A stretch of 42,877 nucleotides of DNA, taken from positions 1 to 42,877 of the forward strand of contig VHAX01000019.1 in NCBI GenBank assembly GCA_016872215.1. The letters run 5' to 3'. The DNA comes from Sphingomonadales bacterium (GTDB lineage Bacteria; Bacteroidota; Bacteroidia; UBA7662). This document shows positions 40,153 through 42,877 of the stretch, one piece after another. The notes below the pieces were generated by a model. It was not told the DNA's origin. It searched no databases and saw only the letters and a list, made by a program, of their open reading frames with translations. The position numbers and the translations under genes were made by a program. Every line of letters begins with the position of its first letter. The stretch's first letter is position 1.

Positions 40153-41133
40153 ATGCCAAGAATATTAATCACCGGAGCCGCAGGTTTTTTGGGTTCTCAT
40201 CTATCGGATCGGTTTATTCGTGAGGGATATCGGGTTGTGGGAATGGACAACCTCATTACAGGGGACCTGCGCAACATCGCGCACCTTATGAAGCAAAAGG
40301 AATTCGAGTTTTACCATCATGATGTGAGCAAGTTTGTGCATGTGGCGGGCCCGATAGATAAAATCCTGCACTTCGCATCACCTGCGAGTCCGATTGATTA
40401 CCTGAAAATCCCCATTCAAACCCTGAAGGTGGGCTCGCTGGGCACCCATAATTTGTTGGGACTAGCCCGTGAGAAAAAGGCGCGCATCTTGGTGGCCTCC
40501 ACTTCGGAGATCTACGGGGATCCGCTGGTACACCCCCAAAATGAGTCCTATTGGGGCAATGTGAACCCGGTTGGCCCGCGCGGGGTCTACGACGAGGCTA
40601 AACGCTTTCAGGAAGCCATCACCATGGCCTACCACACCTACCACGGCCTGGAAACCCGGATTGTACGCATATTCAATACTTATGGTCCACGTATGCGCCT
40701 AAACGATGGCCGGGCCCTTCCGGCCTTCATCGGACAGGCCCTCCGTGGTGAAGACATCACTGTTTTTGGCGATGGCTCACAAACCCGTTCATTCTGTTAT
40801 GTTGATGATCTGGTTGAGGGAATTTTCCGCCTGCTCAAGAGCGATTATACCGGACCGGTGAACATCGGCAACCCGGTGGAAATCACAATTCAGGAATTTG
40901 CCGAGGAAATCATTCGCCTCACCGGCACTTCCCAGAAAATCGTGTACAAGCCTCTTCCGGCTGATGATCCCAAACAGCGGAAACCCGACATCAGCTTAGC
41001 AAAAAAGCTGCTGAATTGGGAGCCGCGGGTGGATCGCGCGGAGGGACTGCGTATCACCTACGATTATTTCCGGTCGCTTCCGGAAGAGGAGCTTTATAAG
41101 GAGGCACATGGACGAACATTCGAGCGAAACTGA
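40153..41133 (+). CDS. UDP-glucuronate decarboxylase (UDP-xylose synthase)
   Basis: Converts UDP-glucuronate to UDP-xylose with tightly bound NAD+. 326 residues from ATG 40153. It is an extended SDR: GxxGxxG as GAAGFLG (8-14), active-site Tyr146/Lys150 in YDEAK, and Ser118 region [14 protein letters not shown]. The UXS hallmark [20 protein letters not shown] and the substrate loop [21 protein letters not shown] are present. The substrate is made by Ugd (31489-32805). The last 26 bases overlap the NusG-like gene, indicating co-translation. Only the decarboxylase domain is present, unlike ArnA. Confidence 0.95.
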
Positions 41134-42043
41134 TTTAACTGTCCCCAAACTCGCCGCCGGGCCTCGGGTGTCTGAGGAAGTGAAGCCACAATCAGCTGCA
41201 CAGAATCAGGCGGGGGGGTTGGAGTCGGTGGAGTTGACAGCTGCAGATGGGATAGAGGTCGAGCCGTTGACACAGATGCAGTCGGAGTTGATAGAGCTGA
41301 AGATGACAGATGGATCAGGGTCAATTATACACACGGCCTCAGAGTCTATGGAAGTGACGCTGGCAGATGGATCAAGGTCAATTACGCAAACGGGTTCAGA
41401 ATCAATAGAACTGCCGAGGACTGAAGGGTTGGAGTCTGCCGAATACCCAGAGCTTCCCCAGGTAAAACGCCCCTGGCTTCCGCCGGGCAATAAATCCTCC
41501 GCAAATCTGCCCCGCCTTTGGTATGCAGTCTGCACCCGCCCGCGCTTCGAAAAGAAAACCCGCATCTTCTTGGAACGGGAAGAAATACCCAACTGGCTAC
41601 CCCTGCAGCGCAGTCAACGGCAGTGGAGCGACCGCAAACGGATAGTCGACGCCCCTGTGTTCAACTCCTATATATTCGTTCACATCACCGAAAATGAGTT
41701 TCACCGCACCCTCAATACATATGGGGTCAGTCGATTTGTGTACTACAACGGCAAGCCGGCCGTGGTTCCCGACCGGGATATCGACTTTTTAAGGCGGGTT
41801 TTTGATGAGGGCTACGAGGTGGAGGCCAGGTCCATAGCCTTTCAACCGGGCATGCGGGTACGCATCACGCGTGGCGCTTTTATCGGCCGGGAGGGGATTT
41901 TGGTAGCTGAGGGCAATCGACAGCGCTTCAGGGTAGATTTGAAGCAGATCGGTCAATCCTTACTTTTCGATTTCACCCCCGACTCGCTCGAACCTATCGC
42001 GGACGATGGTGGCGAGTCATTGACCAACAAGACGTCTGAATAG
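41108..42043 (+). CDS. NusG/UpxY-like transcription antiterminator with repeated N-terminal extension
   Basis: 311 residues. The C-terminal part is a NusG paralogue: NGN domain about 136-235 ([55 protein letters not shown]) and KOW region about 240-275 ([20 protein letters not shown]). Such UpxY-like factors antiterminate capsule/exopolysaccharide operons in Bacteroidota. The first ~135 residues are a low-complexity acidic extension with four imperfect ~19-residue repeats (about 39-110), absent from normal NusG. AAGGAGG (41098-41104) precedes the ATG. The gene overlaps UXS by 26 bases, an unusual downstream position for this regulator class. Confidence 0.85.
41222..41437 (+). repeat. Four imperfect ~57-bp in-frame repeats in the NusG-like gene
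   Basis: Units begin ESVEL, ELIEL, ESMEV and ESIEL and carry (A/T)DG near the middle. A 21-bp word around GGATCA(A/G)GGTCAATTA occurs at 41307-41327 and 41364-41384, one difference, offset 57 = 19 codons. The array is a coding minisatellite whose copy number could change without frameshift. Confidence 0.75.
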
Positions 42044-42147: not shown

Positions 42148-42221
42148 GGGCCCTTAGCTCAGTCGGTTAGAGCGTCTGACTCATAATCAGGTGGTCGTAG
42201 GTTCGAGCCCTACAGGGCCCA
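42148..42221 (+). tRNA. tRNA with CAT anticodon (elongator Met or lysidine-modified Ile2)
   Basis: The cloverleaf reads fully. A 7-bp acceptor stem GGGCCCT/AGGGCCC, D-stem GCTC/GAGC, anticodon stem TCTGA/TCAGG (with one G-T pair) and loop CTCATAA (anticodon CAT). T-stem GTAGG/CCTAC has loop TTCGAGC, and A is the discriminator base. CCA is not encoded, as is normal in Bacteroidota. The loop and the CCCTTAGCTCAGT start fit either elongator tRNA-Met or tRNA-Ile2; the initiator type is excluded by the paired first base. Confidence 0.95.
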
Positions 42222-42233
42222 CTTAATAATCAG

Positions 42234-42268
42234 GGAGTTACCAATAAAAATCGGTAGCTCCTTTTTTT
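42234..42268 (+). terminator. Rho-independent terminator after the tRNA
   Basis: GGAGTTACC (42234-42242) pairs with GGTAGCTCC (42253-42261) as a 9-bp stem with one G-T, a 10-base loop, and seven T (42262-42268). It has a strong classical shape. Confidence 0.8.
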
Positions 42269-42271
42269 ATG

Positions 42272-42290
42272 TGCATACAATTTGCATACA
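42272..42290. other. Paired TGCATACA repeats beside the tRNA, possible attachment-site arm
   Basis: TGCATACA at 42272-42279 and 42283-42290, 11 bases apart (one helical turn), immediately downstream of the tRNA terminator. Short phased repeats next to a tRNA 3' end resemble tyrosine-integrase arm sites, and the following gene is accessory-type. No integrase is in the window, so this is a suggestion. Nothing else is seen from 42291 to 42413. Confidence 0.3.
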
Positions 42291-42413
42291 GAAAGCGTCA
42301 AAACCTCAATCGCCTTAATTTGGGCGAAGAGGAGTGATGGCTTGGTTGACACTCGTCCTTTGGCTTTAGCTGGCTCGAAGGAATCGTTTGCCGCGCCCCA
42401 CCGCACAAAGCCA

Positions 42414-42437
42414 ATGGTTAAATGGTTGAATGGTTAA
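42414..42437. repeat. Three tandem 8-bp units at the end of the DUF1566 gene
   Basis: ATGGTTAA, ATGGTTGA and ATGGTTAA run head to tail at 42414-42437. The stop codon of the minus-strand gene (42434-42436) lies in the last unit. Confidence 0.7.
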
Positions 42438-42877
42438 AAAGCCTGAACAGCACGCACTCGGCCGTCGCTGTTCTTGGAGTTGACGCCGTAGAAGTTGAAG
42501 TAGACATTGCCACTGCTGAAGTTCACGTTCCAGGCGTAGCCCGAACCGCCCTGCGAACTGCTCCAGTACCACTCATTCTTAAAATTACCCTTGCCTTGCT
42601 TGTGCAGCTGCTCATACATAGCCTTTAGCTCCTCCTTGTTGGGCAATCTCCAGCCGTTGCCGAGGTTTTGACAAGCTCTCATAGCATCATCCCAATTCAT
42701 TCGATTTGGCATATCCTGTTCTGCAACCTCGAGCTTACGACCATTAACTTCAATCATAAGCTTCTTACCAAAGCTCAACTCCGCATACAAATCACACTCA
42801 AACTCCCCCACATCCTTGAGCGTCTCCCAATCGATGCGGTGGTTGACACCTGCTGGCACCCGCGTGAGCGCACCTGA
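42434..42877 (-). CDS. DUF1566/C-type-lectin-like variable protein, 5' end outside the window
   Basis: The frame is open to the window edge, so only the C-terminal 147 residues are visible. They show NRMNWDDAMRACQNLGNGWRLPNKEELKAMYEQL, then NEWYWSSSQGGSGYAWNVNFSSGNVYFNFYG and a final DGRVRAVQAF. This is the DUF1566 (Lcl C-terminal/C-lectin-like) fold, which occurs in surface or tail proteins and is a frequent target domain of diversity-generating retroelements. The last third is rich in NNC codons, as in a DGR variable region. The possible start GTG 42859 is internal. It lies 200 bases beyond the tRNA, facing it, in a region that looks like the end of an integrated element. Confidence 0.8.
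   Translation of the reverse strand, partial: SGALTRVPAGVNHRIDWETLKDVGEFECDLYAELSFGKKLMIEVNGRKLEVAEQDMPNRMNWDDAMRACQNLGNGWRLPNKEELKAMYEQLHKQGKGNFKNEWYWSSSQGGSGYAWNVNFSSGNVYFNFYGVNSKNSDGRVRAVQAF
42461..42505 (-). other. Candidate DGR variable-region core (NNC codon run)
   Basis: Reading on the minus strand, 14 of these 15 codons end in C (Val, Tyr, Phe, Asn, Phe, Tyr, Gly, Val, Asn, Ser, Lys, Asn, Ser, Asp, Gly; only Lys AAG differs). Adenine-specific mutagenesis of a template of AAC codons changes the first two positions and leaves the C, producing this pattern. The flanking WSSS...WNVNF and RVRAV...F are the usual framework of such regions. Confidence 0.6.

Follow-up and report, generated by a model that had tools for sequence, protein, structure and literature searches.

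The prototype diversity-generating retroelement (DGR) of BPP-1 combines a reverse transcriptase (RT) carrying the DGR motif variant with Avd, adenine-limited mutagenesis and a variable region (VR) at the end of a gene; it acts in cis, and a hairpin behind the VR is needed for efficient homing (PMC3240598). From Bacteroidota, DGRs are described whose targets carry DUF1566 (Lcl_C) or Fib_succ_major domains, with a C-terminal VR, an A-to-N pattern and an RT-associated template, and one RT may go with several VRs (PMC4159848, PMC6642488). DUF1566 domains have been reported with CLec folds (PMC6642488), and for the Fib_succ_major domain both a similarity to DUF1566 and a role as DGR target have been reported (PMC4159848). 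In Thiohalocapsa PB-PSB1 remote targets match a distant template repeat (TR) at non-adenine sites, and incomplete loci are diversified in trans (PMC10907252). Earlier work has therefore already described DGR targets that are remote or served in trans, templates with more than one VR, targets of the DUF1566 type and AAC runs of changing length (PMC6642488, PMC10907252, PMC4159848, PMC12875486). Owing to their design, surveys for DGRs on metagenome contigs overlook remote targets (PMC8144416).

Here, we describe a gene that is very probably a remote target of a DGR, diversified in trans. It lies in a window of 42,877 nucleotides, which is the whole of contig C19 in a draft genome (G000) of 2.09 Mb, 53 contigs and 99% completeness. 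The system analysed here shares the two target domains, the C-terminal VR, the A-to-N pattern and the RT-associated template with the Bacteroidota DGRs, remote targets matching a distant TR at non-adenine sites and incomplete loci with Thiohalocapsa, and the RT motif variant, adenine-limited mutagenesis and, in sister cassettes, Avd with BPP-1; there are also distinct differences. Unlike in the known Bacteroidota DGRs, the window VR has neither template nor RT on its contig, and targets of both types are dispersed over a genome in which a single RT gene was found. The RT lineage and the targets differ from those of Thiohalocapsa, where the TRs were found, whereas the TR of the window VR is missing. 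In contrast to BPP-1, the window VR has no hairpin behind it.

The target gene (42437-42877, minus strand) is present with 147 codons, its 5' end being off the contig. Its C-terminal part scores 50.7 bits for the Pfam domain Lcl_C (PF07603, formerly DUF1566), where the cut-off is 34.9, and the product ends in WYWSSSQ-GGSGY-AWNVNFSSGN-VYFNFYGVNSKNSDG-RVRAVQAF. The preliminary description had pointed to 14 NNC codons among 15 consecutive ones, and this run is indeed found at codons 125-139 (42461-42505, minus strand), the remaining codon being AAG. The NNC rate in the ten other window genes is 29% (3,453 codons), at which the binomial probability of at least 14 NNC codons in 15 is 3.4e-7. The highest count in any 15-codon stretch of these genes is 11, and none of 20,000 simulated genes of 147 codons reached 14 of 15. 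With these figures, the pattern of codons 125-139 is not a product of the usual codon choice of the window genes. The VR is taken as about 42440-42565 (minus strand), from TGGAGCAGTTCGCAG... through ...GCTGTTCAGGCT, with bounds inferred from where the sister-species copies turn identical at sites that are not template adenines; this broadly agrees with the interval first proposed (42434-42577) and lies slightly inside it. The protein has a weak PDB match (8q4e), its AlphaFold model is poor (pLDDT 52), and a search of viral contigs with it returned no relative. It is likely a surface binder. An Rfam scan of the gene region returned a tRNA only, and tRNA-Met(CAT) (42148-42222, plus strand) is the convergent neighbour of the gene here as in the sister species G001. 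The N-terminal extension of a NusG/UpxY-like ORF (41108-42043) consists of imperfect repeats and differs strongly from that in G001.

G001 holds two homologs of the window gene, a syntenic ortholog on contig C171, which has tRNA-Met and the NusG-like gene as neighbours just as in the window, and, on contig C172, a paralog that is lipoprotein-like. For the comparison of codon positions the template adenines were inferred from the codon pattern. Relative to the ortholog, codon positions 1, 2 and 3 of the window VR are changed 9, 10 and 0 times, compared to 14, 7 and 19 times in the framework (Fisher 1.7e-4). The paralog differs from the window gene by 14, 13 and 0 changes in the VR and 12, 5 and 21 in the framework (Fisher 5e-7), and the third comparison of these copies gave 14, 12 and 0 against 14, 9 and 16 (Fisher 7e-5). 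Third positions are thus unchanged in all of the 26-28 VR codons, whereas 28-37% are changed in the framework. Continued copying from a template in both lineages would leave third positions unchanged in just this way. On sequence comparison, the frozen third positions next to hypervariable first and second positions indicate that a common template keeps resetting the non-A sites of all three copies, with drift in the remainder of the gene. Variation limited to NNC-type sites among close relatives had been named beforehand as a mark of a DGR target, and in both homologs every VR difference falls on codon positions 1 and 2. The case shows that the codon pattern of a remote DGR target is enough to recognise it and that codon-position asymmetry in relatives can confirm it, no template being required.

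A DGR RT is defined by the motifs [I/V/L]GxxxSQ and YxDD. The genome contains one RVT_1 gene, located on the 4.3 kb contig C49, and the earlier statement that the window itself holds no RT is therefore correct. The encoded RT is cut by the contig end and lacks its first 160 or so residues. It carries IGNLSSQ and YVDD, both in agreement with the DGR RT motifs. The PDB entry that it matches best is 8ub7, titled just 'Reverse transcriptase', which we take to be the BPP-1 DGR RT. Thus, the DGR-type RT that was to be sought beyond the window exists in this genome. A TonB-receptor-like gene adjoins it, an arrangement also seen in the sister species. The RT of sister species G003 (SYHW01000040.1) is 93% identical to the C49 RT, and 55 of the 77 nucleotide differences between the two genes are at third positions, which argues that the RT is maintained under purifying selection. 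The cassette of G003 is complete and has the order VR-bAvd-TR-RT, with a VR tail, bAvd (PF22296), a template repeat at 735-914 and the RT at 971-2233; its template is of the Fib_succ_major type only. In G015, which belongs to another genus of the same family, an RT of the same type, with 45% identity to that of G003, is paired with an Lcl_C-type template. bAvd is found in the G003 and G015 cassettes and not in the G000 assembly, whose RT contig stops before the avd position. The C49-type RT family is a DGR family, since a TR/VR pair lies on the same stretch in 132 of 164 loci examined. Over 105 non-redundant pairs of this family, 2284 of 5369 A sites (43%) are changed, compared to 345 of 10309 other bases (3%).

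A search of G000 with the G003 template revealed seven further VR loci, all of them in Fib_succ_major-type genes: C46, C40, C17, C15, C33 and the short tails on C6 and C43. Mismatches to this template at A sites and at other sites amount to 20/48 and 1/132 for C46, 24/48 and 4/132 for C40, 27/48 and 7/131 for C17, 20/47 and 12/132 for C15, 28/47 and 11/123 for C33, and 15/29 and 3/67 for the C6 tail; the C43 tail is too short to be scored. Taking together nine Fib_succ_major-type VRs from four genomes of the genus, 204 of 411 A sites and 56 of 1113 other sites are mismatched (odds ratio 18.6, p 5e-84). The C6 and C43 loci are clearly defective, with just the VR end and the flank kept in unrelated sequence, and the C15 gene looks broken upstream of its VR. 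The remnants (L025 on C6, 1104-1199; L026 on C43, 1124-1176) consist of the last 50-100 VR bases with flank and hairpin. Including the window, putative DGR targets are scattered over at least eight places of the genome. The preliminary description had left three options for the cassette, namely to the right of the window, acting in trans, or lost; action in trans is best supported, with the RT on another contig and many VRs dispersed over the genome. In the mechanism we propose, the C49 RT and an Avd partner would make cDNA from an A-rich template repeat and misincorporate at template adenines, and this cDNA would replace the VR of the window gene in trans. Template AAC codons would turn into NNC codons, so that exposed ligand-contact positions of the C-type-lectin-like Lcl_C domain would be randomised and the framework kept. 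The same machinery would rewrite the seven or more other VR loci of the Fib_succ_major type.

We class the window gene as a DGR target, as had been suggested for this DUF1566 protein, because of the codon-position comparison and the DGR RT of the genome; the near-identical template repeat that was to be looked for was not found in the assembly, which breaks inside the RT. Searches of the genome by DNA, by pattern and with a predicted template returned only the VR itself, looking for the absent avd-TR-RT region across G000-G002 gave VR loci only, and the exact template core has no match in viral contigs. Absence of the template from G000 holds only as far as this incomplete assembly can say, and the region from avd over the template to the RT start is absent from it; the Lcl_C-type template likely lies in this gap. 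It might instead be that the template which shaped the VR has since been lost, that the C49 RT now serves only Fib_succ_major-type VRs and that the window gene is frozen. An Lcl_C-type template was looked for in G000-G003 and not found, the G003 cassette has only the other template type, and the window VR has no hairpin, all of which would fit such a loss. We nevertheless consider it unlikely, since the breaks of the assembly fall precisely where templates are to be expected and where repeats collapse, and since the non-A sites of the VR are identical across both sister species and the paralog in spite of a diverged framework, which argues that rewriting continued after the species split.

Rewriting in trans could also be the work of a second DGR with its own RT, located in an assembly gap or in an unassembled element and serving the Lcl_C-type VRs. 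Genomes with several DGRs are known (PMC10907252), and in G015 the Lcl_C-type templates come with their own RT. This arrangement is improbable here, with one RVT_1 gene only in an assembly that is 99% complete, and a 3' flank common to the window gene and the Fib_succ_major-type VR genes hints at a single machinery. The C49 RT probably serves the window VR. That there is no DGR at all, and that the NNC-rich loop stems from ordinary positive selection, recombination or codon bias, is hardly credible: the region is rich in C-ending codons and such loops can evolve fast, but many first- and second-position changes without any at third positions run opposite to what ordinary evolution produces, positive selection included, and related VRs agree with a known template at non-A sites.

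Among the three copies VR length differs by whole codons within the AAC-type run, the counts between GTC and AAG being 9, 6 and 4 codons; in the wider family, most of the targets aligned have 4 codons there. While the C171 VR aligns to the G015 Lcl_C-type template without gaps, the window loop (42461-42505) is five codons longer than both, and because of these extra codons the window VR cannot be aligned to that template in the AAC run without gaps. Length changes in threes inside AAC runs have been described as slippage in DGR templates (PMC12875486). The five additional codons resemble that case and may reflect either slippage or a longer template, the window's own template being missing. 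In the C49-type RT family, about one in ten TR/VR pairs, or more, show a template and a VR of different length, in frame and within A-rich runs (L035, L104, L110, L126, L140, L143, L170, L194, L195, L118, L079 and L188).

The shared 3' flank includes a 13-mer, TTTGTGCGGTGGG (42397-42409, minus strand, in the window). Most VR genes of the genus, with either target type, have it at a distance of about 25-30 bases from the stop codon, on the downstream side. It is exact at five of eight VR loci of the own genome and also occurs at G001 and G003 VRs; C40 and C46 have a one-base variant, TTTGTGTGGTGGG, and the reversed control pattern gave no match. The motif is not exclusive to VRs, as three of its eight matches in G000 (C8, C20, C30) have no detectable VR alongside. 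On C8 (81700-81899, L239) a Fib_succ_major-like gene end without the NNC pattern lies about 180 bases before the 13-mer copy. The simple explanation for the shared flank is that gene ends were duplicated together. Behind the window VR there is no GC-rich hairpin (z -0.5, no stem of at least 7 in 211 bases), whereas strong ones follow the VRs of G003 C29 (z -6.2) and G000 C46 (z -3.3). No hairpin was found near the VRs of C15, C17 and G001 C35 either, and other tRNA-side VRs lack one like the window VR. The hairpin may not be strictly needed here, because the G001 C35 VR has only one mismatch at 132 non-A sites, as measured against the template of another species, G003. VRs with and without hairpin appear to coexist under one RT, which offers a natural test of the need for it. 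A more far-reaching scheme, in which one DGR RT serves two target families genome-wide and in trans via two templates, recognises its targets by the shared 3' flank with the 13-mer instead of the usual hairpin, and gains loop-length diversity from AAC slippage, seems to us quite doubtful. The tRNA-side VR genes, next to tRNA-Met in the window and in G001 and to tRNA-Val on C15, have a flank in common (window 42223-42330; L024 1650-1800; L042 600-760; L235) in which a ggagttacc...ggtarctcc stem occurs together with tgcatacaatttgcatac; this looks like the insertion of a unit behind several tRNA genes.
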